From: a virus
Length of the DNA: 31,166 bases
IMG/VR virus record: IMGVR_UViG_3300028394_000226
Location: 1-31,166 of that record
Direction: 5' to 3' (one strand)
Shown: piece after piece, positions 1 through 31,166 of the stretch
Layout of the letters: each line of letters begins with the position of its first letter
Position numbering within the stretch: position 1 is the stretch's first letter
Made by a program: the position numbers and the translations under genes
The notes under the pieces: generated by a model
Seen by the model: only the letters and a program-made list of their open reading frames with translations
What the model was told of the DNA's origin: nothing
Databases searched by the model: none

Positions 1-74
1 TTGTCGCGGGGGGGCGTCAGATTTGTCGCGGGGGGGGTGTCAGATTTGTCGCGGGGGGGTGTCGTGGTTGTCGC
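1..74. repeat. G-tract direct repeats, left half (candidate origin iterons)
   Basis: Continuation of the array across the contig junction. The G runs here are G7 at 8-14, G8 at 30-37 and G7 at 53-59, each preceded by TGTCGC. The array ends in a degenerate TGTCGCCCC at 69-77. Read across the join, run lengths alternate 7, 8, 7, 8, 7, so neighbouring units total 45 bp (15 codons) and the initiator frame is kept. The outer units carry GTCGTGGT and the inner units GTCAGATT. Confidence 0.85.
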
Positions 75-389
75 CCCTAATGTTTCAGGGTTAAATTCTT
101 CCTCAATTATATATAAGTTTCTTTTTACCCCAGGTGTAATAATACGACTAACTAATCCTACCTCAATTAAATTTGTAATAGAACGCTGAATTGTTCTTAT
201 GCTTTCATTAAATTCTTCTGCAAAAAACTCATTACCAGCAAAGCAACCCTGTTTCAAGTTATTTTTATAATATATCTCACCATATATTAGAATATCCAAG
301 TGAGATAATGATGGATATTTTTTTCTTAATTCCTTAAAATAAGGCACAAATTGTTGATTTTTTAGAGTTTTATTACTATCTTTATTCAT
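1..389 (-). CDS. Replication initiator-like protein, N-terminal part (continues at the other end of the window)
   Basis: The ATG at 389 opens a frame that stays open to base 1. Joined to the frame at 31164-30754 through the 7-base end overlap, it gives a 264-residue protein. Residues 15-100 look like a winged helix-turn-helix: a helix with LSHLDILIYGEIYY, then FAGNEFFAEEFNESIRTIQR as the HTH, then a wing ending in RNLYII. This is typical of phage and plasmid replication initiators and replisome organisers. Residues from about 105 are a Thr/Pro/Asp linker encoded by the G-tract repeats. An upstream ATG at 399 hits a stop after five codons, so 389 is the start. The first gene of the early block, it probably binds the origin repeats in its own gene and recruits host replication proteins. 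The role is inferred from domain type and layout; a transcriptional regulator is the main alternative. Confidence 0.75.
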   Translation of the reverse strand, partial: MNKDSNKTLKNQQFVPYFKELRKKYPSLSHLDILIYGEIYYKNNLKQGCFAGNEFFAEEFNESIRTIQRSITNLIEVGLVSRIITPGVKRNLYIIEEEFNPETLGATTTTPPRDKSDTPPATNLTPPRD

Positions 390-3757: not shown

Positions 3758-4573
3758 TTAACCTTCGCCAGAAACAGAACTTGATGAAGGTGTTGGTGTT
3801 GGCGTGTTTGCTATTGGTGTTGCATCAATATCACAATTATTAACATTTGTTGGTGTTATTGAAGGTGTTGGTGTAGTTGTTTTAGTTGGTGTTATAGTTT
3901 GAGTTGGTGTTTCTGTTGGTGTAATAGTGTTAGTAGGAGTAATTGTTGTTGTTATACTTGGTGTTGGTGTATTAGTGTTGGTAGGAGTAATGGTAGGGGT
4001 TGGCGTTGATGTTGGTGTTATTGTTTTAGTTATACTTGGTGTTGGTGTAATAGTCCTTGTTGGTGTAACAGTCCTTGTTGGTGTTATAGTATTAGTAGGT
4101 GTTGGTGTTATTGTTTTAGTTATACTTGGTGTTGGTGTAATAGTATTTGTTGGTGTTATAGTGTTGGTAGGTGTAATAGTATTAGTTGGTGTTATAGTAT
4201 TAGTTGGTGTTGGTGTAATAGTCTTGGTTGGTGTAATAGTATTAGTTGGTGTTATAGTATTAGTTGGTGTTGGTGTAATAGTCTTGGTTGGTGTAGGTGT
4301 TGGAGTATTTGTTGATGTAGGTATTATACTAGATGTAACTGAAATTGTTGGTGTAACTGAAGGTGTTACCCCAGTAAAAGAATTTTGACCCCCTACAATA
4401 AATCGTGGTATTAAATCAATCCTTACAAAATCATTTTTATTTGAATTATATGGCTCAAAAGATGCAGGTGTTTCTTTTTTTTCTTGTAATACAGGCTGTG
4501 CAGTATATACTTGTTGCTTCCCTAATACCCCCCATCTTATGCTATTTTTACCTTTATAATTGTTAAATTTCAT
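3758..4573 (-). CDS. Thr-Pro-repeat virion protein
   Basis: A 271-residue protein. Residues 1-65 are a short unique N-terminus ([21 protein letters not shown]). Residues about 68-245 are almost only Thr, Pro, Ile, Asn and Ser in units such as [19 protein letters not shown] and TPTRTVTPT. The tail is [19 protein letters not shown]. Such arrays are expected to be extended and possibly glycosylated. The underlying DNA is a tandem repeat of 12-18 bp units (about 3840-4330), similar to the linkers of the tail fibre gene. It lies between the tail-tube-like gene and the 193-residue protein gene. A capsid- or neck-attached fibre is a reasonable guess. Confidence 0.65.
3840..4330. repeat. Tandem DNA repeat coding for a Thr-Pro array
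   Basis: Irregular tandem units on the plus strand built from GTTGGTGTAATAGT and GTTGGTGTTATAGT variants, coding on the minus strand for TITPTNT-type units. Near-identical units occur in the 2277-residue protein gene at about 15940-16400 and 17500-18125, which creates scope for recombination within the genome. Confidence 0.85.
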
Positions 4574-8430: not shown

Positions 8431-9243
8431 TTAATTTTTTATACACCTAACAGATGCGCCAGAAGCAATATTTAACCCATAAATACTTAAACCAGAATTA
8501 AACGTTGTAAAACCAGCAGTAGAAGAACTTGTCCCTCTGTGATATGCGAAAAACTTAAAAGCATCCCAAGCATTTCCAACAAATCCACCACTACCAATTA
8601 AATTAAATCCACTTTTATTTGTTCTTGCAGGTGATGCATCACCATTCCAATACTCATTTCCTGGATATTGAAACCACGTACCATCAGCAGACCAACTTGG
8701 TAATGCATTAAAATCAGCATCAGTTGGCACTCTATATCCAACTGGACATATATTTGTTGTGGTATTTGCTGATGTGCTAAATTTTACCGCTTCATTATTG
8801 TATAGTAATCCATGTATTTGAGTATTACCTGAATTATTATTAACAAAAGTATATAAAGGGGTTGTTGATGCACTTGTTGTCCAAGACCCCCCAGTTGTGG
8901 CAAAATATATTGGCGATCCATCTTGGAATTTGGTTGTCCTTAAATTTTCTGACATCCATACTTGATTGCCAATCTTAATTGTATTATAAACATTACCATC
9001 TCCATCTGGTGGTGTTAATAACGCACTTTCACAAGTCTTATTTGTCCCAGAAAAATATAATTCAAATACCCCATATTCCATAGCCGGGTTTTCATTTTGA
9101 TAAGTAAAAGGTAATACTTTTTGACCAAGATTTATACTTGTGCCAGATGGACTATTAAAAGGTATTGTATGCCCTGTTGGGGCGTATAGTGTAACACTTG
9201 CTGTTGCACCACTATAATTAGTTGTTTGTATTAAAACTGCCAT
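8431..9243 (-). CDS. FISUMP-domain virion protein
   Basis: A 270-residue protein. Residues 1-80 are a small beta domain (TNYSGATASVTLYAPTGHTIPF, ENPAMEYGVFELYFSGT). Residues about 84-270 match the Fibrobacter succinogenes major paralogous (FISUMP) domain: VYNTIKIGNQVWMSENLRT, YNNEAVKF, ICPVGYRVPTDADFNAL, SGFNLIGSGGF, and the closing GASVRCIKN. FISUMP is a C-type-lectin-like surface fold typical of Bacteroidota proteins. Here it lies six bases after the tape measure stop, so it is probably a virion surface or adhesion protein. The ligand is unknown. No reverse transcriptase is present, so it is not a recognisable diversity-generating retroelement target. Confidence 0.8.
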   Translation of the reverse strand: MAVLIQTTNYSGATASVTLYAPTGHTIPFNSPSGTSINLGQKVLPFTYQNENPAMEYGVFELYFSGTNKTCESALLTPPDGDGNVYNTIKIGNQVWMSENLRTTKFQDGSPIYFATTGGSWTTSASTTPLYTFVNNNSGNTQIHGLLYNNEAVKFSTSANTTTNICPVGYRVPTDADFNALPSWSADGTWFQYPGNEYWNGDASPARTNKSGFNLIGSGGFVGNAWDAFKFFAYHRGTSSSTAGFTTFNSGLSIYGLNIASGASVRCIKN

Positions 9244-11568: not shown

Positions 11569-14349
11569 CTATACTTGTCTTGGAATAGTAGGTGGTAGTT
11601 CATTTATAATGAAATGATTTCTCGATAAAATAATATTATAAGCGGTATCATTTCGTAGATTTTGATATATTGAAGGACGAATAGTATCACCTACATTTAA
11701 TGATAATACAATTCTTGTTGTTGTTGTTGGAATTTTAATAAGTGAAGTGCTGTATGGCCAAAAGTTTGAAACATAAATAGCGGTACTATTATTATAATTG
11801 ATAATAGTTGCAAACTCTCTATCTAGTGATAAAGGAGTAACATTATCAAGCATCATAGCAAATGAAATATCATAAATACCTGCACGAGGACAAGTAAATG
11901 TTCCTGTTGCACTATTCCATGCACTAGGTGTATTATTAACAACTGAGTCCCAATTAACTACTGTTGTTTCTAAATTATAGGGGATTGATTGTGCTGTGGA
12001 TTTATTTAATGATAAATAAACTGGTGTAATCATAGTAGAGCCTGTAATAACTCTGCCAGCACTTGAAATACCCAAATTGGTTATAGATGTCCCTGAACCT
12101 ATTGTGGTTATGTTTAATGTTGTTGCAGTTATAGCGTTAATATTTGTGTTACCTGTTGCAGTTAAGTTATTTATGTTAATTGAACTAGTCCAAGAAGTAT
12201 CATAATCTGTGCTTGAATTTTTAACTAATAGTTGGTTAATTGTTCCTCCTGTTTTTGCAAAAGAAGTCCCAGATGTCCCACTTGTGCCAGATGTCCCTGA
12301 TGTCCCGCTTGTGCCAGAAGTACCTGACGTCCCAGTTGTACCGCTTGTGCCAGAAGTCCCGCTTGTGCCAGATGTCCCTGTTGTCCCCGAACTTCCACTT
12401 GTGCCAGTTGTCCCGCTTGTGCCAGTTGTACCGCTTGTGCCAGAAGTCCCACTACTTCCACTTGTGCCTGATGACCCCGAACTTCCACTTGTCCCAGCAC
12501 TTCCACTTGTTCCATTTGTCCCACTACTTCCACTTGTGCCTGCACTTCCACTTGTGCCATTATTACCAGATGTCCCACTTGACCCCGAACTTCCACTTGT
12601 CCCAGCACTTCCACTTGTTCCATTTGTCCCACTACTTCCACTTGTGCCTGCACTTCCACTTGTGCCAGAAGTACCATTTACACCACTTGTCCCAGATGAA
12701 CCTGAACTACCACTTGTGCCACTTGTCCCGCTAATACCACTTGTGCCAGATGTCCCAGTTGTCCCAGAAGTGCCATTTCTACCACTTGTCCCAGACGTCC
12801 CTGTTGAACCTGTAAGAACACTAATAATATTATTACTATCCAATACAAGTGTCCTTGTTGAACCTGTTGATGATGGGGGATTTATTAACCTTATTGAATC
12901 ACTAACAGTAGCAGTTAATAATCTTGCTTGTTCTGCTGTTGCTCCTTGTGATTGTAAAAAAGTTTCATATTTTATTGCAGAGGGGCTAATACTTAAATTA
13001 TAACCCGTAACATTAACTAATGAATAAATTACACCAGCACCAATTGTAATAGTAGAACTTAAAGGAGTTCCTTGTATTGAGTTTGCAACAAATAACCCTG
13101 AAGTAACAGTTATGGAGTTTGTAGTTGTATTCTGTAAATATAATAATTGCGATGATGAAGTAATAAGGGATCCATATATTTGTGAATCATATATATATGT
13201 TGGTGCATTAGTAATACTTAAATTACCGCTCAATTTACCATTTTGTATCTCGTGGAAAGTTGTGCCTGATAAGTTTAATGTTGATAAAAACTCTAAATTG
13301 GTATAATGACATCCATTTGGCCCAGGATTGCTTACTGATGTTGCACCAAGAAATGTAAGATCAGTAAATTTTTGACCTGATGTAGTTGAAGTTGTTGTGC
13401 CTGAAATAATAGTATTTGGCCCCCTACCAATAGTAGTAATATTATACTTATTAAAATTAACATTTTCAATATACTGACCCCTAACAAGGTTAATTACATC
13501 ACTTGGGGTAACCGCAGTTAATGTTGCTGTAATGGTTTTTTTGGGGGCACCAAAAGCACCACTATTATTGTCATTTCCATTAACAGGATCCACCCACCAT
13601 TCTAATGAGTATTTGTAATTACCTGCACTTGTGCCACTTGTCCCAGCAGTTCCACTTGTCCCAGCACTTCCACTTGTTCCTGCACTACCACTTGTGCCAT
13701 TTATCCCAGAACTACCACTTGAGCCAGATGACCCTGAACTACCAGATGTCCCTGAACTACCAGATGTCCCTGAACTACCAGATGTCCCCTCTGTGCCACT
13801 TGTGCCAGATGAACCACTTGTGCCAGATGAACCAGAACTACCACTTGAACCAGAACTACCACTTGAGCCAGATGACCCTGAACTACCAGATGTCCCCTCT
13901 GTGCCAGATGAACCACTTGTGCCACTACTTCCACTTGAGCCTGATGAACCACTTGTCCCCTCTGTGCCACTTGTGCCTGATGAACCACTTGTCCCCTCTG
14001 TGCCACTTGTGCCAGATGACCCACTTGTGCCACTTGAGCCAGATGACCCTGAACTACCAGATGTCCCCTCTGTACCACTTGTGCCTGATGACCCTGAACT
14101 ACCAGATGTCCCCTCTGTGCCACTTGAGCCAGAAGAACCACTTGTGCCATCTATACCACTTGAGCCAGATGACCCTGAACTACCAGATGTCCCATCTATA
14201 CCACTTGTCCCAGAAGTCCCAGAGGCACCTATAAAGGTTTCTTTTGTTACCTTATATGTTATTGTTTCACCACTATTATTCATTATAATAAAAGTCCCCG
14301 CAGTATCCCCTGTATAAAGGGGTAAATCTGAAATTCTTGTACTTGACAT
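11569..14349 (-). CDS. Collagen-like tail fibre with beta-helix and C1q-like domains
   Basis: The start at 14349 (MSSTRISDLPLYTG) gives 926 residues; the longer frame to 14421 would begin inside the terminator hairpin. Domains in order: a short virion-attachment N-terminus (1-40). Collagen-like Gly-X-Y repeats follow at about 41-241 (GTS, GSS, GTEGTS units). A probable right-handed beta-helix (about 247-506) opens with WWVDPVNGNDNNSGAFGAP, as in pectate-lyase-like proteins. A second Gly-Thr-Ser array lies at about 513-697, then a linker. A C-terminal C1q/TNF-like jelly roll (about 780-926; PRAGIYDISFAMML, RIVLSLNVGDTI) closes it. Collagen repeats and a C1q head imply a trimeric fibre with a receptor-binding tip. 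It lies between hub and tape measure genes, with its own terminator-flanked unit. Confidence 0.82.
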   Translation of the reverse strand: MSSTRISDLPLYTGDTAGTFIIMNNSGETITYKVTKETFIGASGTSGTSGIDGTSGSSGSSGSSGIDGTSGSSGSSGTEGTSGSSGSSGTSGTEGTSGSSGSSGSSGTSGSSGTSGTEGTSGSSGTSGTEGTSGSSGSSGSSGTSGSSGTEGTSGSSGSSGSSGSSGSSGSSGSSGTSGSSGTSGTEGTSGSSGTSGSSGTSGSSGSSGSSGSSGINGTSGSAGTSGSAGTSGTAGTSGTSAGNYKYSLEWWVDPVNGNDNNSGAFGAPKKTITATLTAVTPSDVINLVRGQYIENVNFNKYNITTIGRGPNTIISGTTTSTTSGQKFTDLTFLGATSVSNPGPNGCHYTNLEFLSTLNLSGTTFHEIQNGKLSGNLSITNAPTYIYDSQIYGSLITSSSQLLYLQNTTTNSITVTSGLFVANSIQGTPLSSTITIGAGVIYSLVNVTGYNLSISPSAIKYETFLQSQGATAEQARLLTATVSDSIRLINPPSSTGSTRTLVLDSNNIISVLTGSTGTSGTSGRNGTSGTTGTSGTSGISGTSGTSGSSGSSGTSGVNGTSGTSGSAGTSGSSGTNGTSGSAGTSGSSGSSGTSGNNGTSGSAGTSGSSGTNGTSGSAGTSGSSGSSGTSGSSGTSGTSGTTGTSGTTGTSGSSGTTGTSGTSGTSGTSGTTGTSGTSGTSGTSGTSGTSGTSGTSFAKTGGTINQLLVKNSSTDYDTSWTSSININNLTATGNTNINAITATTLNITTIGSGTSITNLGISSAGRVITGSTMITPVYLSLNKSTAQSIPYNLETTVVNWDSVVNNTPSAWNSATGTFTCPRAGIYDISFAMMLDNVTPLSLDREFATIINYNNSTAIYVSNFWPYSTSLIKIPTTTTRIVLSLNVGDTIRPSIYQNLRNDTAYNIILSRNHFIINELPPTIPRQV
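12260..12810. repeat. Second Gly-Thr-Ser (collagen-like) tandem repeat
   Basis: Nine-base-based tandem units on the plus strand (CCACTTGTGCCAG, CCCGCTTGTG variants), coding for GTSGTSGSS triplets on the minus strand. The repeats create long open frames in the other frames as a by-product. Several longer sub-blocks recur, such as the stretches near 12487-12545 and 12588-12650. Confidence 0.88.
13625..14230. repeat. First Gly-Thr-Ser (collagen-like) tandem repeat
   Basis: Tandem triplet repeats coding for GTSGSSGTEGTS units on the minus strand, about 200 residues. Repeated higher-order blocks carrying a GTEGTSGSSG phase are visible. Such DNA is prone to copy-number change and assembly error, so the exact repeat count should be treated as approximate. 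Confidence 0.88.
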
Positions 14350-14372
14350 ATTGTTATTTTTTTTTAATTGCT

Positions 14373-14386
14373 TTATATAAATATAG
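14373..14386 (-). promoter_or_regulatory. TATATTTATATAAA element upstream of the collagen-like fibre gene
   Basis: The minus strand reads TATATTTATATAAA, 23 bases before the fibre start and directly after the terminator at 14396-14423. It is one of the clearest copies of the motif shared by several transcription-unit starts in this genome. Confidence 0.42.
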
Positions 14387-14395
14387 AAGATTATG

Positions 14396-14423
14396 AAAAA
14401 GTTGTGGCTTCTACACCACAACT
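14396..14423 (-). terminator. Terminator after the giant tail protein gene
   Basis: On the minus strand AGTTGTGG (14423-14416) pairs with CCACAACT (14407-14400), with an 8-base loop, followed by TTTTT. It lies 24 bases past the stop of the 2277-residue protein gene and is a clear intrinsic terminator. Confidence 0.75.
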
Positions 14424-14446: not shown

Positions 14447-17400
14447 TTATATAGTGGTAAAAGTTATTGATGTTGTTGCTGTTATTCTATAAGTTGTTGT
14501 GCTTCCAACTTGGAATACATTTGAACCCGTTATTTTATAACCTTCTGGCACTTGTATAAAAACAACCCCTGAACTACCTGATGAACCAGGATAACTTGGA
14601 ATACTTCCTCCATTACCCCCATTACCACCTCTACCTAAATTGGGGGAGTTTGCTGGCTCTGCACTAGATGATTCATCACCTCCAATTCCACCAGCAGAAT
14701 AACATTTTGGACAGACTGTTAAAGGTAATGTGGCACCATCACCAGCAATAGCACCACTTGCCGAGCCTCCAAAGCCAGCACCTCCTCCACCTCTTGTAGT
14801 TTGTCCATCTGCACCAGAATATCCATAAGGGGCAACTGAACCACTACCTATTGGGGTTGATGTTAGAGAGCCACCTCCACCACCATCAAATCCATTTTTA
14901 TTTGCTTCTGATGCACCTCCACCTCCAACATTATTTGTTATTAGTAAATTTGTTGCATTATAACTTAAAATTGACCCTATACCTTCACCACCTTGACCAC
15001 CATTAAAAGAACTAACCCCACCAAAACCACCAGAACCAATAGTTATACCATAAGTTTCATTTAAATTTACATTAAGGTTGCCTATAACAATATCACCACC
15101 AGCACCAGCACCACCAGCACCACCAGCACTACCAGCACCTCCTCCACCTCCACCTCCAACAAGGTTGGCAGATATTACAATACTTGAACATAGAGTGCTA
15201 CCAGTTATTGCACCTGATGCATTTATACCATAACAAATTCCATTATTTACAAATATTCTTTCACTACCCCAAGCGGAAGGGTCAGTATTATTACAAGATG
15301 TTAAACTTGGATAATAAATTGCTCCATTACCTGAATTAAATGTAGCATATCTACCAAAAACATAACCATTTGCTGAACACGCTGTTTGACAACTATTATT
15401 GCCAGATAAATCTCTATACCCTTGATAAATTCTACACGCTTGAATTGGGCTACCTGTTGGTGTTGGTGTTGCAGTATTTGAAGGGGTTGTAGTAATTGAA
15501 GCAGTTGGTGTAATTGTTCTGGTTGGTGTAATTGATGATGTTGGTGTTGGTGTTGGTGTTGGATTATTACTTGGTGTTGGTGATGGTGATGCAGGAGATG
15601 GACAATTTGTTACTGTAAATATTTCATTATAGTTATTAGTAACAAACCAAGCATAACAAGCAAACTCATCTGTAAATGTGTTTGCAGGATCCCCATCATT
15701 TGCAAATTGTAACCAAGTAAATCCTGGATTTGGTGTATTATTTAAACAAGCACTTTGTGAATTTGCATCTGTATCCATATAATATACTCTATCATTAACT
15801 GATAACGCCCCTGTGCTTTTTCTAACATATGCAGTAAATGTTGCACCACTTGCTGGACAACCATAAGTACATGTTGCAGGCACATTTGATGATGCTTTAA
15901 ATTGTCTTGCATAACAGAAAACTGGTGTTGGTGTTATAGTTGGGGTTCTTGTATTTGTTGGTGTAATTGATGGAGTAATAGTTGGAGTTATTGTATTTGT
16001 TGGTGTAATAGTTGGTGTTTGTGTTTGAGTTGGTGTTATAGTTTCTGTTTGAGTTGGTGAAGGTGTTATTGTATTAGTTATACTTGGAGTAATTGATGCT
16101 GTAATAGTTGGAGTTTTTGTATTAGTTGGTGTTGGTGTTGGTGTTACTACTGCATTTGTTGATGATGGCGTTGTTGTTGGAGTAATAGTGTTGGTAGGTG
16201 TTATAGTTGATGTTGGTGTAATTGTATTTGTTGGAGTAATAGTGTTGGTAGGGGTTATAGTTGATGTTGGTGTAATTGTATTTGTTGGAGTAATAGTGTT
16301 GGTTGGAGTTTCTGTTGGTGTAATAGTATTAGTAGGGGTTATAGTTGGTGTAATTGTGTTGGTAGGAGTTGTTGTTTGTGTTGGGGTTGGTGTAGGTGTT
16401 GGGTTTATAAAACATCCAACAATTCTACCATCAGAATTTAATCTTGTAAAGTAATTTGCTGATATCCCATTATATGTGGTAAATTGACCACCTACAAGTA
16501 TTCTATTATTATATTCAATTACTAATGATAAAACCGAATTATTAAAACCAGTTCCAATAACAAAACTATTATCTCTACTTCCATCAGAATTTAATCTAAT
16601 TATTCGCCTTGCTGAAACTCCTTGATATGTAGTAAATGGACCACCTACAAGTATTTTACCATCTGATTGAATTGCAATATTGTCGCAACCAAAATCAAAA
16701 CCAGTTCCCATAACAAAACTATTATCTATACTTCCATCAGAATTTAATCTAATTATATCATTTGCTGATATTCCACTATATGATGTAAAACTACCACCTA
16801 CAAGTATTTTACCATCAGATTGAATTGCAATAGCAAAAGTAGCAGAATCAAAACCAGTTCCTATAACAAAACTATTATCTCTACTTCCATCAGAATTTAA
16901 TCTAATTATTCTATTTACTGAAACTCCTTGATATGATGTAAAATCACCCCCTACAAGCATTTTACCATCAGATTGAATTGCAATAGCAAAAGTAGCAGAA
17001 TCAAAACCAGTTCCCATAACAAAACTATTATCTCTACTTCCATCAGAATTTAATCTAATTATTCCCCTTGCTGACACTCCTTGATATGTTATAAATTCAC
17101 CAACTACAATTATTTTACCATCTGATTGAATTGCAATCTTTAAAATAGTAATAAAACTATTAAAACCACTTCCACTATTAAAAGTATTATCTATACTTCC
17201 ATCAGAATTTAATCTAATTATTCTATTTGCTGATACTCCTTGATATGATGTAAAATCACCACCTACAAGTATTTTACCATCAGATTGAATTTTAATATTA
17301 AGAACAAAACTATCAAAACCACTTCCTATAACAAAACTATTATCTCTAGTTATATCAGAGTTTAATCTAATAATATTATTTGCTGATACTCCACTATACG

Positions 17401-20400
17401 ATGTAAAATCACCACCTACAAGTATTTTACCATCTGATTGAATTGCAATATCAAGGGGAAGACCATTAAAGTTATAACAAGATGTGTTAATTACTTCTGC
17501 TGATGGTGTAATAGTTGGTGTAATACTTGTTGTTGGAGTTGTAGTATTAGTAGGGGTAATAGTTTGAGTTGGTGTAATAGTATTAGTAGGGGTAATAGTT
17601 TGAGTTGGTGTAATAGTATTAGTAGGGGTAATAGTTTGAGTTGGTGTAATAGTATTAGTAGGAGTTATAGTTGATGTTGGAGTAATTGTATTTGTAGGAG
17701 TTATAGTTGATGTTGGAGTAATTGTATTTGTAGGTGTTTCTGTTGGTGTTGGAGTTTCTGTTTGAGTTGGTGTAATAGTGCTGGTTGGGGTTATAGTTGG
17801 TGTAATGGTATTAGTAGGAGTTATAGTTGATGTTGGTGTAATTGTATTAGTAGGGGTTATAGTTGGTGTTGGTGTTTCTGTTTGAGTTGGTGTAATAGTT
17901 CTGGTTGGGGTTATAGTTGGTGTAATTGTATTTGTAGGAGTTTCTGTTGGTGTTGGAGTTTCTGTTTGAGTTGGTGTAATTGTATTTGTAGGGGTTGGAG
18001 TTTCTGTTTGAGTTGGAGTAATTGTATTTGTAGGGGTTATAGTAGGTGTAATAGTTTGAGTTGGTGTAATAGTGCTTGTTGGTGTTTGTGTTGGTGTTAT
18101 AGTTGATGTTGGTGTTGGGCTTGGCACTACATTCACAAATTCAGTTGTAACCCTTGATACAAATATATTATTATATTCTTCAACTGATAAATTTAAATTA
18201 CTATATGAAGAAGTCTGTAATAAATTTGAAAAACTTTCACCACTTAAAGTTACAACTTTTGTTGCACTTGTTGTCCCCCCTACCATAGTAATAGTTTCAT
18301 TAACTATAATAGGTGTTGTTATTGTGTCAAATGTATGAGTAAAATTTAAATCATAAGTAAGTGGCTTTGCTTCATTTGCTAATAATGTATATGTAATAAC
18401 AACTGAACCAGGTTCTACCACTCCATCTAAATCTAATTCTAATGTTGGCTCTGTTTGTTGAACCACATCAAATTGTGTTCTACCTGTGCAAGCGCAATTT
18501 TCATATACCCCTACCCCTACTCCAAGTTCGCCTGGAAAGGGGTTTAATGGATCGTTGGCGTTGGCTGAACCAATATATATTTTCTCATATACATGATTGG
18601 CATTATAAGCCACTTCTGATACACTATAACACCCTAATAATGTCAGGGGATAAACTGACCCCCTATATACCTTTACATACTTATTTATATAAGCAAATAA
18701 GCCATAGTTAATATCTGAATTTGTATATATAATATCCCCACTTGAACAGCCAGATAACTTATAATACAATACTGGGTGGGGGGTATAGTCTCTTGTTAAT
18801 TTTATTAACTCCACATCACATAAACCAATTTCAACTAAATTATATGACAACTTATTTATCCTATAATAATTGTTTTCTATTAAAATCTTTTCGTTGTATT
18901 TTAGATTGGCTATTTCATAGGGGTCTAAAAATATCTTTAAATTTATTATTTTATTCTCATCACTAATTAAATCATCTATATAATCTTTATAATATATAGA
19001 ATACATATCAGCCGCCCAAGGGAATATAGTTTCTAAATTATCAAAAGCATCACTTCTAAAATTTGTATAATGGCTAAACTCATTATAATTAAAAGGATAA
19101 GTTGTAAATCTATTTAATAATTGTATTTTATCAAAACTTTTATTTTCAATATAATATTTTAATAAATTTGATGGTCCGTTTGAATAGTTATCAGATGGAT
19201 ACATAACCCCCCTAAATATTATTCTGGCTAATGACTTAAAAGGTTCAAATAAATTCTGGGGTTGTCCATTAAAGTCTTTAACTTTAACCGCTGATATATT
19301 TGGTATTGTTATCCTTGGGGGATCATTCTTTGTGCCATCGATTGTAATATCAATACTTTGTGCAAATACCCCCTCAATTTTTGTAATATTATCCTTATAT
19401 TCTTGGCTTAATTGAATATTCCTTGACCCAAAAACTCTATTTAAGTTAATATTAAATTGCTGATTAGACCAGTCCTTATCTAATCTACTATTAAAAAATA
19501 ATGTTCCGTTAATATAATTTGTAGTTGGTTCAACTTTAATAGGACTATTATAATCCACCCTTGATGTCCAATCTAAAATATCCCCCTTGCCTATATAATC
19601 CACAATAGGTTCAACTATTAAAGTCTTTGGTTTATCTGGTGATGGTATTACAACAAGGTTAAATAACTTATTTACAGATGATATAAAATCTATTTGCTTA
19701 TACTCATCTTCGGGGAATTGTGCTGCGTAGTTAAAATCCCCAACATAACTTGAAGGTGCATCAATTATTGTAAATGTAATATCTCTAAAAGCATTTATAC
19801 CATAACTACCTAACTCAATAGTAATAAATGTTCCCACATTACCATTTATATCAACCGTAACAGTTCCAGCAAATTGAACAGCCTCGTAATTGCCAGGATA
19901 TTCATCACACATCTGTTGTGTTAGCATATTATAGACAATAGGATTGTTTCCTGTGTTTGTAACTAAATTGATTGTAAAATCTTGTGAGGGGCAAGTTTCA
20001 TATACCACATCGGCAGTTAAAATAACATTAAATGTATATCTACCATTTAATATGGAAGGTATTAAAAAACTATCTGTATTTGCTAATAAATTAAAATTAT
20101 TACAAGTTATGCCAGATGATGGATTGGTAGTTTGTATATAAACACCTATATTTGAATTTGTATATGTATAACATACTTTTTGATCCCCACCTGAAAGAAC
20201 ACTATCCTCAAATTTTAAGGGTAAATAATATTTTTTAAAATATGCTGTATCAAAAAACTTACTTTCAATTGTATAACCAGCCTGATTACATATTTGATTA
20301 TATAACTCCCTAACTTGTAAAGATGGCTTTAAATAACTTGATTGAACTGGTGTCCCCGAAAAACTAAAATAATTTGGTATATCATTCCTTTCTGCAAATT

Positions 20401-21280
20401 GTAATCTTGGGGTTGTTACATCAGTTAATATACCAGAGGTAGATAAATATAATCCTATACCCCAAGTATTATCTGAACCAGTTCCTAATTCTGATGTAAT
20501 GTTAAATGTTAATTGTAAAGTGTCTATATTAAAACTTATAACTGTGCCAATTATAAATCTATTAGGATTACTATTTGATATTAGTATAACTTGATCTCCA
20601 GCAATCCAAGGGGTTGGTGAAGTTGAACTTAATAAAACACTTTCAGTCCCCCCTACCCCAAATGTAATTTGCCCAAATGCTTGACCATTATAAAATTCTT
20701 GTATATTTGATGCTGAAGTTGTATATTGATAACCTATATTATATAAACCAAAAAATGTTCTGCCATCTTCATAAGGATATGATGGTCTTTGATCTGTCAC
20801 ATGGAGCAAATATAAGTTGGGGTCATATTGTGATTTTTCTATAACTACTGAATTCATAGGGTGCGTTAAACCAGATAAGTTTAAATCATATAAAAACTTA
20901 TCCTTAATATTTGCAACCAAGTCCCCTACCTCATTATAAAATGTAATTGAATAGACTTTTTCTAATTTAGTTATATTAACTGAATTTAATCTAATATAGC
21001 CAGTTGCTATCTCATAACCATTAAGTAATATCTCTGCCTCAAATTTAAGTTTGGGGTTAAAATCTGTAAATGTGGAGGAGAACTCATAAAAGTAATTAAA
21101 AACATCATTATTATTTTTGGACCCCGGCAAATTAAATTGCTTTGAATATGCAGAGTTCTTTTTTGTAATGTCTTGTATTTCAGCAAATGAAGTATTTATT
21201 TGCATAGTTTCGTTGGGGAACATATCAACATACCTTTGATTGCCCTCAACATAACATCTTATTTGTAATCCTTCTGTCAT
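14447..21280 (-). CDS. Giant modular tail hub/receptor-binding protein (2277 residues)
   Basis: Residues 1 to about 860 look like a baseplate or tail-hub protein ([54 protein letters not shown]). An Ig-like beta domain at about 960-1050 follows. A Thr-Pro linker occupies about 1051-1260. Seven delta-60 (DUF5122) repeats lie at about 1271-1623, each with [18 protein letters not shown] and IIRLNSDGS, predicting a seven-bladed beta-propeller. A second Thr-Pro linker (1626-1786), a Cys-rich module (1789-1893), a third Thr-Pro linker, and a second Cys module (1949-2031) come next. A Gly-rich domain at about 2040-2237 resembles the polyglycine sandwich of Gp38-type adhesins. The last segment ends the protein. 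The N-terminus would anchor in the tail tip; the rest is a long, flexible, multi-ligand adhesin. It follows the 619-residue tail gene by 10 bases. Confidence 0.82.
15940..16400. repeat. Thr-Pro repeat array after the propeller
   Basis: Plus-strand units such as GTTGGTGTAATAGT and GTTATAGTTGATGTTGG, coding on the minus strand for [13 protein letters not shown] units (residues about 1626-1780). The units closely match those at 17500-18125 and at 3840-4330. Confidence 0.85.
16411..17470 (-). repeat. Seven delta-60 repeats (predicted seven-bladed beta-propeller)
   Basis: Seven consecutive units of about 50 residues (about 150 bp each) in the giant tail protein. Each has [11 protein letters not shown] followed by [18 protein letters not shown] and [10 protein letters not shown]. 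The seventh unit is degenerate ([13 protein letters not shown]) and ends GRIVGCF. Neighbouring units are also highly similar at DNA level, which points to recent expansion or gene conversion. Confidence 0.88.
17500..18125. repeat. Thr-Pro repeat array before the propeller
   Basis: Tandem plus-strand units including GGGGTAATAGTTTGAGTTGG repeated about three times near 17555-17650, coding for [12 protein letters not shown] units on the minus strand (residues about 1051-1260). It separates the tail-hub part from the propeller. Confidence 0.85.
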
Positions 21281-27952: not shown

Positions 27953-28798
27953 CTATTTTAAATTTTTAAATATATGTGCAATTACATCAACAGTCCAAGC
28001 ATTACCTATCATCTTATACCTTTGTGTATTTGATACCCCTTCTGTATAATTGTTAGGTATTGTCTGTAATCTTTCACATTCAACTGGTGTTGGCACTCTT
28101 ATATAATCATCAGATATTTTTATAGGTAACCCATTACCCCCTACGTTTCTAGGATTTGTTAATAATGTCTTTGCTTTTTGTTCTGGTGTTCTCATACTCA
28201 TCCTTGATTTTTTATAACTCAATGTCCCTTGTTTTTTCTTATAAAAATTCTGTGTAAAATTATATTTATTATCAACACTTTCCTCCATTATATCCTTTAA
28301 GTATAATCCTAGGTCATCTGGTTGTGTTATATTAGGTATATTTGTCCAGTATAATCTTTTTCTGTTTTGTGCTGATACAAGACTTGAATTTATCATTATT
28401 GGTTCTACCCCCAATTCATTTGTGATAATATCTTTCCATTCTTTTTTCATAACAACATTCTCTAATAAAAAATAAGTTGGATTAACTTCCTTTAATACTC
28501 TAACATACTCCCAAAATAATCCACTTTTTCCATTAAAACCTTTTCCATTACCAGCACTTGAAAACGACTGACATGGACTACCACCAAATAATAAATCAAT
28601 CTTTGGTAAAATATTAACATCTAGTTTTGTTATATCCCCTAATTGAATTGTGTTGGGGTAATTCTTATTTGTAATCTGCATAGCATACTTATCAATTTCA
28701 CAAGCATAATAATTATCATAATTAACCCCAACCTTATTTAAGGCAATTTGCCCACAACTCATTCCATCAAATAAACTCAATACATTCATTTCTTTCAT
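27953..28798 (-). CDS. C5-cytosine DNA methyltransferase
   Basis: A 281-residue protein that methylates cytosine at C5, with the standard motifs. Motif I is LSLFDGMSCGQ (residues 7-17). Motif IV is GGSPCQSFS with catalytic Cys76. Motif VI is ENV (113-115), and motif VIII is QNRKRLYW (144-151). The target recognition region is about 160-235. Motif IX is RVPTPVECERLQTIP and motif X is RYKMIGNAWTVDVIAHIF. ATGs at 28798 and 28789 are both possible starts. No restriction enzyme gene is nearby, so it is probably an orphan enzyme that protects phage DNA from host restriction. It lies between the beta-class methyltransferase and holin genes. Confidence 0.9.
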   Translation of the reverse strand: MKEMNVLSLFDGMSCGQIALNKVGVNYDNYYACEIDKYAMQITNKNYPNTIQLGDITKLDVNILPKIDLLFGGSPCQSFSSAGNGKGFNGKSGLFWEYVRVLKEVNPTYFLLENVVMKKEWKDIITNELGVEPIMINSSLVSAQNRKRLYWTNIPNITQPDDLGLYLKDIMEESVDNKYNFTQNFYKKKQGTLSYKKSRMSMRTPEQKAKTLLTNPRNVGGNGLPIKISDDYIRVPTPVECERLQTIPNNYTEGVSNTQRYKMIGNAWTVDVIAHIFKNLK

Positions 28799-28860
28799 AT
28801 TTTAATTTTAAGGAGGGGTAATATATCCCCCTACCTTTGATATCATTTTTATATTATAAT

Positions 28861-30744
28861 TCATTCTGGCTTAAATAAACCACTTCCTTTAGCGTGTTCT
28901 ATTCTGGCTTTTGCAATATCAAAATATTCTTTTTCTTTTTCTATACCTATAAAATTAAAATTATTCTTGATCGCGGCTTTTCCAGTACTCCCGGATCCCA
29001 TAAAAGGATCAAGCACGATCCCTCCTGGGGGTGTAATAAGTTTGATTAAATACTCCATAAGTTTTGTTGGCTTTACAGTTGGATGGATATTCTTCATAGT
29101 TGGGGCATTTTCATCATTTGTCTCTAATCTTTTTTCAACACTTGTTTTTCTACCTATACCCCCAGAGTTCATTTGTGATGCCTTATCCTGGAAATTCTCA
29201 AGCCCCTCATTGCGGTCTTTTTTGCTGGCTTTTGCACAATAGAAGAATCTGCTTGCACCCCCTTCATCTTGTATAGTATTTGGATATACTTTATGTTTAT
29301 GTCCTGTTGCTTGTGTTCCATCTTCTTTTAAGAATACACCTGAACCTTTATTTTCTATATTTCCTTGTTTTGTATTTGATTTGCTATAACCTGATTGAGA
29401 ATCAAGTGCGCGACCAGCCTCCTCATCAAAAATCACGTTGGCTGGGAAGCGACCTTCATTATTAACAATATATGTTTCTCCACCTTTAAACCCATAACCT
29501 AATTCTTGTAGTCTATTTCTATTTTCATTAAACCTTTTAAGACCTTCTGTATTTTTTTCTTTATCATTTTCATCCTTATAATCAATCCTACTCTCCTCAA
29601 TATTTATACCACCAGTTCGCCACTCTAAAACATTATTTGCAACCGATCCAGAAAATGGTTTCCTTGCCATCACAATTGGATTGTGATTTGTTGATGTGTC
29701 AAAATCTTCATCATCTGTATTTTCAACATTTAAAAAATATCTGCTTGCACCACCTTCATCAGTAAAACCCCTAATATTATCTAATGATTTTTTTGGTTTA
29801 TTATAAGTATTACCTACCTTTAATCCGGCTATGGACTTATATTTTTCACTATCAAATACAGCACTTTTGCTGATTCCACTTTGTTCATCTAATATTTTAC
29901 CAGCCTCCTCATCAAAAATCACGTTGGCAGGGAAGCGACCTTCTGGTTGAATAAAATCTTTATTTGTTACTGATGTATAAAAACTTGGAGCATTTTCTTT
30001 TTGTTTTGTTGGATTTTTAGCATATGCTCCCCCATTTAAATTATCATCAGTTGGTATTCTACTCTTATCTATGTTAATCCCACCTGTGCCCCACGCTAAA
30101 ACGTTTTGGGCCACCGATCCAGAAAATGGTTTCCTTGCTAAAACTAGGGGTTCGTGCGCGGGTTTCATCGCCGTGCCCCAGCCCTCCCATTCACTTTTTC
30201 CTTTTGTTATATTGGCTTCATATCTCTCTATACCTTTTTCATTAAGACCAGCCAAATAATTACCACCTCTAATATCTGTTAATGTTTGTTGTCCAACAAC
30301 CTCACTTGTATTACCCCTTATTTTATCCACGGCTTTTCCAATATTGTATGACTTGGGGAATCCACTACCATATATCCATAAGATCTGATCACGTATTGAA
30401 AATCCCGCGTCTTCTATTGCAACAGCCATTCTGTGATAAGTTCTACTACCACCAAAGGATAATAAATGACCCCCTGGTTTTAATACCCTTAAACATTCTT
30501 CCCATATTTCAGTTCTAAAGGATATATCTCCTCCATCCCACTCTTTACCCATAAAACCTTTAGATGCCCTTTGAAATGCCCCATCTGTGCCAAATTTGGC
30601 AGGTGCTGATCCATCTTTACCAAATCTTTTTGTAATTGAGGTTAAATGATAAGGTGGATCCGTTACTATACTATCGACACTATTATCTGGTAATGATTTT
30701 ATTGCTACCAAGCAATCTTCGTTAAATAATCTTATTTGTTCCAT
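28861..30744 (-). CDS. Beta-class DNA methyltransferase (N6-adenine or N4-cytosine) with duplicated internal region
   Basis: A 627-residue enzyme. Catalytic motif IV TDPPY is at residues 28-32, and the cofactor-binding motif I DPFMGSGSTG is at 579-588. The order IV then I marks the beta class. Between them a segment occurs twice. Copy A (about 198-337) has EPLVLARKPFSGSVAQNVL, TGGINIDKSRI, EGRFPANVIFDEEAG and DEGGASRYF. Copy B (about 356-501) has NPIVMARKPFSGSVANNVL, TGGINIEESRI, the same EGRFPANVIFDEEAG and DEGGASRFF. Single-copy relatives have one such segment, where target recognition is expected. The adenine/cytosine choice cannot be decided by eye. The GC-richer duplicated blocks stand out from the AT-rich context. 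It is the second gene of the early block. Confidence 0.88.
   Translation of the reverse strand: MEQIRLFNEDCLVAIKSLPDNSVDSIVTDPPYHLTSITKRFGKDGSAPAKFGTDGAFQRASKGFMGKEWDGGDISFRTEIWEECLRVLKPGGHLLSFGGSRTYHRMAVAIEDAGFSIRDQILWIYGSGFPKSYNIGKAVDKIRGNTSEVVGQQTLTDIRGGNYLAGLNEKGIERYEANITKGKSEWEGWGTAMKPAHEPLVLARKPFSGSVAQNVLAWGTGGINIDKSRIPTDDNLNGGAYAKNPTKQKENAPSFYTSVTNKDFIQPEGRFPANVIFDEEAGKILDEQSGISKSAVFDSEKYKSIAGLKVGNTYNKPKKSLDNIRGFTDEGGASRYFLNVENTDDEDFDTSTNHNPIVMARKPFSGSVANNVLEWRTGGINIEESRIDYKDENDKEKNTEGLKRFNENRNRLQELGYGFKGGETYIVNNEGRFPANVIFDEEAGRALDSQSGYSKSNTKQGNIENKGSGVFLKEDGTQATGHKHKVYPNTIQDEGGASRFFYCAKASKKDRNEGLENFQDKASQMNSGGIGRKTSVEKRLETNDENAPTMKNIHPTVKPTKLMEYLIKLITPPGGIVLDPFMGSGSTGKAAIKNNFNFIGIEKEKEYFDIAKARIEHAKGSGLFKPE
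29239..30153 (-). repeat. Internal duplication in the beta-class methyltransferase gene
   Basis: Two segments of about 430-445 bases: copy A at about 30153-29725 and copy B at about 29682-29239. Parts are almost identical at DNA level: 29911-29944 compared with 29417-29457 (plus-strand core cctcctcatcaaaaatcacg), and 30112-30137 compared with 29641-29668 (core accgatccagaaaatggttt). Other parts have diverged, which suggests a mixture of old duplication and later gene conversion. Confidence 0.8.
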
Positions 30745-30753
30745 ATTTTAATT

Positions 30754-31166
30754 TTAATAATTTAATGCATTATATATTTCATAATCTGAAAATTTATCTT
30801 CAATATTTCTTTGAGGGATATCAAATTCCTCTTCTTTAATTGAAGAAGATTTAGTTTTTACTTTTTCTATTTTTTCCTCAAGGGTTTCTTCCACTTCAAT
30901 TCGTAGGAGGGAATTTAAATATTCTTCAATTTCTGTAGAATGCATATCCCCCCCCGTTGGGTGATTAGTTGAAGTATTAGAAACAACGCTTTTAACTTCC
31001 TTATCTATACCTTCAACTAAATCCAAATTTTTGCTTATATTATTATTATATTCATTATTATCTTTATTCTTTTCTTTATTATTCTCTTTATTCTTCTCTT
31101 CTACTATGACGCTGGTGTCGCGGGGGGGCGTCGTGGTTGTCATGGGGGGGGTGTCAGATTTGTCGC
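30754..31166 (-). CDS. Replication initiator-like protein, C-terminal part
   Basis: This is the downstream half of the gene that starts at 389. The frame is open from 31164 and ends with a stop at 30754-30756. An ATG at 31143 exists but lies inside the repeat-encoded linker, so it is probably not the true start. The half begins with the end of the Thr/Pro/Arg/Asp repeat linker. A very Asn/Lys/Glu-rich low-complexity segment follows (encoded by 31023-31105), then an acidic and helical tail with EEYLNSLLRIEVEETLEEKIEKV. No catalytic motif is visible. By analogy with lambda O or DnaD-type proteins, this half would contact the helicase loader or host helicase, but no sequence motif proves it. The methyltransferase start codon lies 10 bases downstream of the stop, so the two genes are probably co-transcribed. 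Confidence 0.72.
   Translation of the reverse strand, partial: DKSDTPPMTTTTPPRDTSVIVEEKNKENNKEKNKDNNEYNNNISKNLDLVEGIDKEVKSVVSNTSTNHPTGGDMHSTEIEEYLNSLLRIEVEETLEEKIEKVKTKSSSIKEEEFDIPQRNIEDKFSDYEIYNALNY
31023..31105. other. AT-rich stretch next to the iterons (possible DNA unwinding element)
   Basis: About 80 bases of almost pure A/T with interspersed C on the plus strand, encoding the Asn/Lys/Glu-rich part of the initiator. It lies directly beside the G-tract repeats. In lambda and many iteron plasmids an AT-rich element next to the iterons is where the duplex first opens. The low complexity is seen directly; the unwinding role is inference from position. Confidence 0.4.
31116..31166. repeat. 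G-tract direct repeats, right half (candidate origin iterons)
   Basis: Two complete units and the start of a third. Each unit has TGTCGC (or TGTCAT), a run of seven or eight G, then CGTC or TGTC followed by GTGGT or AGATT. Unit 1 starts at 31116 with G7 at 31122-31128. Unit 2 starts at 31138 with G8 at 31144-31151. Unit 3 begins at 31161 and continues from base 8 of the window. Together with the left half they form about five tandem units, each 22 or 23 bp, inside the initiator gene. Confidence 0.85.

Follow-up and report, generated by a model that had tools for sequence, protein, structure and literature searches.

The window analysed here, the whole 31,166-bp stretch of IMG/VR record IMGVR_UViG_3300028394_000226, is a circular phage genome opened within a tandem repeat array. 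Both ends lie within this one array and have the 7 bp TTGTCGC in common, positions 31160-31166 repeating positions 1-7. In the near-identical IMG/VR contig 3300010885_019804 (L001) the gene at this junction is unbroken and encodes the same protein; since this contig also has an overlap of about 98 bp between its own ends, the genome is circular, with a length of about 31,159 bp. Two more near-identical records also stop inside the array. The contig L002, 99.96% identical elsewhere, diverges just past the first array unit (L002:5346-5421) and has an A-rich tail at its end, which probably reflects an error in the reads or the assembly, at the C-tract or contig end, and not a real variant.

Two minus-strand open reading frames (ORFs), 3-389 and 30754-31164, were joined on the 7-bp overlap into a single ORF of 264 amino acids, running from 389 to 1 and then from 31159 to 30754. 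Its 5' part (1-389, minus strand, start codon at 389) holds the domain HTH_36 at amino acids 28-80, array units 1 to 3 and the start of unit 4, and its 3' part (30754-31166, minus strand) carries the stop at 30754. The order in the coding direction is HTH_36 domain, array (gene nt 316-436), AT-rich stretch and C-terminal part.

The N-terminal domain was identified as an HTH_36 winged helix (PF13730, 34.3 bits with a cut-off of 25, E = 2e-8), the sole match at E≤0.01 in a Pfam scan of the protein, in which no Rep_3-type domain, as in plasmid iteron initiators, was found. The protein also matched the phage replication-initiation families phrog_428, 186, 270, 391 and 678, and on the strength of the Pfam and PHROG matches the gene is assigned to the HTH_36 phage initiators. 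An AlphaFold model of the domain (mean pLDDT 81) has the order H-H-H-H-E-E, three to four helices followed by a two-strand wing. A structure search gave weak MarR/TubR-like matches, with TubR (4asn) among the best (E = 6e-3) and nothing below 0.001, and tblastn of the protein against phages and plasmids gave no match at E≤0.01. The C-terminal part (30754-31022, minus strand) is without a Pfam domain and is a candidate helicase- or loader-contact region. No DnaD/DnaB_2 domain was recognised in it by Pfam, which is no bar to membership of the HTH_36 initiators because the domain is neither required nor present in all relatives. Among the scanned proteins of the genome, which include several of unknown family, none was recognised as a helicase, loader, primase or polymerase. 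An Rfam search matched no RNA family.

Two DNA methyltransferases, of the C5 and the N6/N4 type, are encoded immediately downstream of the initiator gene (27953-30744, minus strand). A protein of 950 amino acids (11569-14421, minus strand) combines collagen triple-helix repeats with a C1q domain and is probably a tail or receptor-binding fibre; a Fib_succ_major domain protein (PF09603) is encoded among the structural genes (8431-9243, minus strand). The largest of these products, of 2277 amino acids (14447-21280, minus strand), has DUF5122 beta-propeller repeats and a Gly-rich domain, and its DUF5122 repeats appear in the DNA as 153-bp tandem repeats at 16428-17451.

The array consists of five complete units of 22, 23, 22, 23 and 22 bp and a decayed sixth. 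Runs of seven or eight G lie on the plus strand at 8-14, 30-37, 53-59, 31122-31128 and 31144-31151, so that the coding strand of the initiator gene carries C-tracts of C7, C8, C7, C8 and C7. All units are on the minus strand, and their sequences are given on this coding strand: unit 1 (53-74, 22 bp, GCGACAACCACGACACCCCCCC), unit 2 (30-52, 23 bp, GCGACAAATCTGACACCCCCCCC), unit 3 (8-29, 22 bp, GCGACAAATCTGACGCCCCCCC), unit 4 (31144-31166, 23 bp, GCGACAAATCTGACACCCCCCCC, the last seven window bases being equal to window positions 1-7), unit 5 (31122-31143, 22 bp, ATGACAACCACGACGCCCCCCC) and the decayed unit 6, which has no C-tract (31108-31121, GCGACACCAGCGTC). With C7 or C8 standing for the entire tract, units 1 to 5 read GCGACAACCACGACAC7, GCGACAAATCTGACAC8, GCGACAAATCTGACGC7, GCGACAAATCTGACAC8 and ATGACAACCACGACGC7. 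The unit pattern occurred five times in the window, each time in the array, against 0.46 expected and at most two in 100 shuffles, and no further copies were found elsewhere in the window. The joined ORF and the unit counts thus bear out the original prediction of about five tandem units in the linker of a winged-helix initiator-like gene. The AT-rich stretch that it had placed beside the array was found as well: the 83 bp at 31023-31105 (minus strand) have a GC content of 18%, the coding strand is 78% purine, and only 1.9% of the 83-mers of the window are as GC-poor. This stretch is a candidate unwinding element.

The array is kept as DNA and not as peptide. In translation its units alternate between ATxxTPP and RDKSDTPP, which are two frames of one DNA unit; the third frame of the GACAAATCTGA units carries a TGA and reads RQI-stop. 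A synonymous null was set up in which the amino acids were fixed and the codons sampled according to codon usage in the phage. Five tracts of C7 or longer were observed, with a null mean of 0.11 and a maximum of three in 20,000 simulations. Because one unit is read in two frames and the C-tracts lie far above this codon null, selection acts on the DNA itself.

A survey of relatives was seeded with an alignment restricted to the HTH domain and covered 80 loci out of at least 390 relatives detected. After removal of near-duplicates, and with loci found via repeats left out, 36 non-redundant linkers were retained, the window's own relative L001 included; segments of other genes and intergenic DNA from the same contigs served as controls. 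Direct repeats that are not AT-type followed the HTH domain in 35 of the 36 relatives; the controls had them in 35 of 266 segments in one test and in about 13% of 549 in another. Autocorrelation peaks in the linkers fell at lags of 22 (17 linkers), 23 (16), 24 (11), 45 (16) and 67 (10), with neighbouring lags almost nil. A period of 22-24 bp was present in 26/36 linkers and 12/266 controls (Fisher 2e-20), a p-value to be read in the light of shared ancestry, the loci not being phylogenetically independent. The AT-richest 50-mer lay C-terminal of the array in 32/36 relatives. Nearly all of the non-redundant relatives thus carry repeats in the corresponding part of the gene, where the original prediction would have them.

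The linkers of the relatives also contain the motif AATAATACA, which was found in 24/36 linkers and in none of the 266 controls. Asn codons in loci of at least 42% GC were AAT:AAC 69:17 in the linker versus 65:64 elsewhere in the gene (p = 8e-6, for loci that share ancestry). The AATAATACA enrichment and the AAT bias indicate that the AT-richness of the linker is selected as DNA too. AATAATACA recurs within the AT-rich element in two thirds of the relatives (linkers of L022-L099) and may have a strand-opening role of its own.

The G-tract form of the repeats had been noted as unrecognised, but it is not unique, since C-tract units of the same layout, GACAANNNNG(T/A)C(A/G)CCCCC, are present in several other HTH_36 phage genes. 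The unit GACAAAAATGTCACCCCC, known from phage initiators, was used as a search pattern and retrieved ten viral contigs, mostly in HTH_36 linkers, in tandem with C-tracts between the copies and in differing frames. Arrays of this kind in L009, L016, L018, L116 and L132, all uncultivated phages, resemble that of the window in layout (GACAA-NNNN-GWC-R-C-tract), in a period of 22-24 bp, and in occupying the same place in the HTH_36 gene in several frames; their palindrome is perfect (GTC), whereas that of the window is imperfect (GAC). Long G/C tracts are missing from the arrays of many relatives, and a tract may occur on either strand. The exact unit pattern GACRCCCCCCNCGACAAA was rejected, giving five chance matches in unrelated viral-contig genes. 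A looser tandem pattern was likewise rejected as an origin finder: many of its 46 stretches were chance matches in unrelated genes that are GC-rich or carry acidic repeats, so that a match to the pattern is not enough to identify an origin. Neither a second alignment search nor a search with a single protein, using a GC-rich subfamily, gave a match. With tblastn, one weak match was obtained among phages (MT839944, E = 2). In the HTH protein of this GC-rich phage, GAAGCGGCTTC linker units parted by CCCC were seen by eye (L019:952-1131); the plan is alike and the repeat unrelated.

Chain analysis of the relatives showed that alternating 22/23 arrays use exactly two frames, 22 and 23 adding up to 45 bp or 15 codons. 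In 16 of 19 two-frame arrays (our own count from the chain-analysis table) one or more copies, and often every copy, have a stop in the unused frame (every copy in L024, L050, L057, L103 and L106). Equal 22/22 arrays (L116, L132 and L096) pass through all three frames with units that are nearly stop-free, and 24-bp arrays exist too (L034). The alternation is partly a necessity, because a frame with a stop is not available to an ORF; its informative part is that the spacing is held near 22.5 bp and not moved to 21 or 24. It would represent a coding compromise in which sites stay about two helical turns apart, the coding sequence stays open and the third, TGA-bearing frame is skipped. A few model phages had already shown an origin of this intragenic plan; the survey of relatives and the 22/23 alternation are what is new here.

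By family, the nearest experimentally studied member is TP901-1, whose ORF13, like the Rep of Tuc2009, is described as binding a direct-repeat region in its own gene that serves as ori (PMC8965321). TP901-1 Rep scored 24.5 bits with HTH_36, just below the cut-off of 25. It shares with the window protein an HTH_36-type N-terminus and a repeat region (gene nt 310-395) adjoining the lowest-GC stretch of the gene; it differs in the sequence of the repeats, in their main period (15 bp in our test), in having no long G/C tracts and in its C-terminal DnaB_2 domain, which the window protein lacks. In SPP1, gp38 binds the direct repeats of oriL within gene 38 and an adjoining AT-rich DUE unwinds (PMC6316719). 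By published description, not by sequence, this likewise places repeats inside the initiator gene beside an AT-rich element, but SPP1 encodes a loader and a helicase itself and has a second origin.

In lambda, mid-gene iterons are bound by the O protein, and an AT-rich tract melts (PMC7466680). The lambda likeness that had been proposed stands as a plan, with mid-gene iterons (O nt 348-433 compared with nt 316-436 here) followed by an AT-rich, purine-biased stretch; the lambda iterons are also spaced at 20-24 bp and also have CCC/GGG-rich arms. It does not stand as homology. O belongs to PF04492 and the window protein to PF13730, no PF04492 match was found in the latter, and hhalign of the A2 alignment with lambda O gave E = 0.88 over 10 columns. 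The lambda iterons are moreover clearer palindromes, and no lambda P-like loader was recognised beside the initiator, where several genes are of unknown family.

Taken together, the initiator family, the layout of array and AT-rich element and the repeats in 35/36 relatives support the origin role first proposed for this locus, and comparison of the sequences makes it very probable that the array and the AT-rich element are the replication origin of this phage, within its own initiator gene. The HTH_36 winged-helix N-terminus would bind the 22/23-bp units as iterons, and with a spacing of about two helical turns the bound copies would be aligned along the same face of the helix. This nucleoprotein complex would then open the adjoining AT-rich stretch, and the C-terminal part of the initiator would recruit a replicative helicase, probably that of the host, given that the scanned proteins of the genome include no recognised helicase, loader, primase or polymerase. 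Whereas the array, its position, the DNA-level selection and the occurrence across relatives are direct observations, this sequence of binding, opening and helicase loading is modelled by analogy on TP901-1, Tuc2009, SPP1 and lambda.

Several observations weigh against an origin. GC skew does not have the minimum expected at the junction; once detrended, its extremes fall at 4516 and 15437 and do not exceed those of block shuffles (p = 0.30), in a test of little power because the main genes all share one strand and the skew follows the coding and repeat genes. Long GTTGGTGT(A/T)AT-type repeats at 3849-4322 and 15900-18115 reverse the local GC skew and would confuse a skew-based origin call. 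Furthermore, the units of the window are poor palindromes next to those of relatives such as GTGACAAAAATGTCAC, AATAATACA is absent from the window, which has a different A/G-rich repeat in the place where relatives carry it, and the protein has no DnaD/DnaB_2 domain.

The resemblance of the winged-helix fold to MarR-type regulators, and the block to transcription that an array bound within the gene would impose, are what one would expect if the array were an operator for autorepression of the initiator, or a silencing or timing site, rather than an origin. The array lies mid-gene and not at a promoter, though, an AT-rich element follows it in the relatives, and the same layout is an origin in TP901-1, Tuc2009, SPP1 and lambda. 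This makes an operator very unlikely in place of an origin; an origin might additionally cause autorepression.

Little credence is given to the idea that the G-tracts function as a G-quadruplex or another non-B structure and are not part of protein-binding units. Five G7-G8 tracts do lie on one strand, and several assemblies break in the array, as if it were hard to copy or sequence. The tracts are about 15 nt apart, which is long for quadruplex loops, and because many relatives lack a long tract and its strand varies, it is not the common feature of these arrays.

The region is also of low complexity and probably flexible in the protein, as a proline-rich linker with repeats formed by slippage and no role at the DNA level would be. 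Such an account seems highly improbable for an array whose DNA unit is translated in two frames in the window and in three in L116, whose C-tracts far exceed the codon null, and which recurs in 35/36 relatives with a 22-24-bp spacing that is fixed across differing sequences. A partition site comparable to the repeats to which winged-helix TubR binds is extremely improbable: TubR is among the best structural matches, but that match is weak and common to many MarR-like proteins, no TubZ-like (tubulin/FtsZ) or ParA-like protein was recognised among the main proteins scanned, and the PHROG matches are replication initiators.

Within an origin, the C7/C8 tracts might in addition act as a switch. 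A one-base slip at a tract, in replication or transcription, would shift the frame of the downstream units and truncate the initiator to a predicted product of 116-153 amino acids, which keeps the DNA-binding domain, loses the C-terminus and would be a natural inhibitor of its own origin. This is a very unlikely refinement, the tract lengths of 7, 8, 7, 8 and 7 being constant across the records that span them, though assemblies give the majority sequence only.

If the array and the AT-rich element are the origin, the system is one of dual coding in which constraints at the DNA level and at the protein level can be separated. The 22/23 spacing and the C7/C8 lengths would together hold the sites two helical turns apart while the stop codon is avoided. 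As nearly every relative found has an intragenic array, the origins of many uncultivated phages would be locatable from sequence alone.
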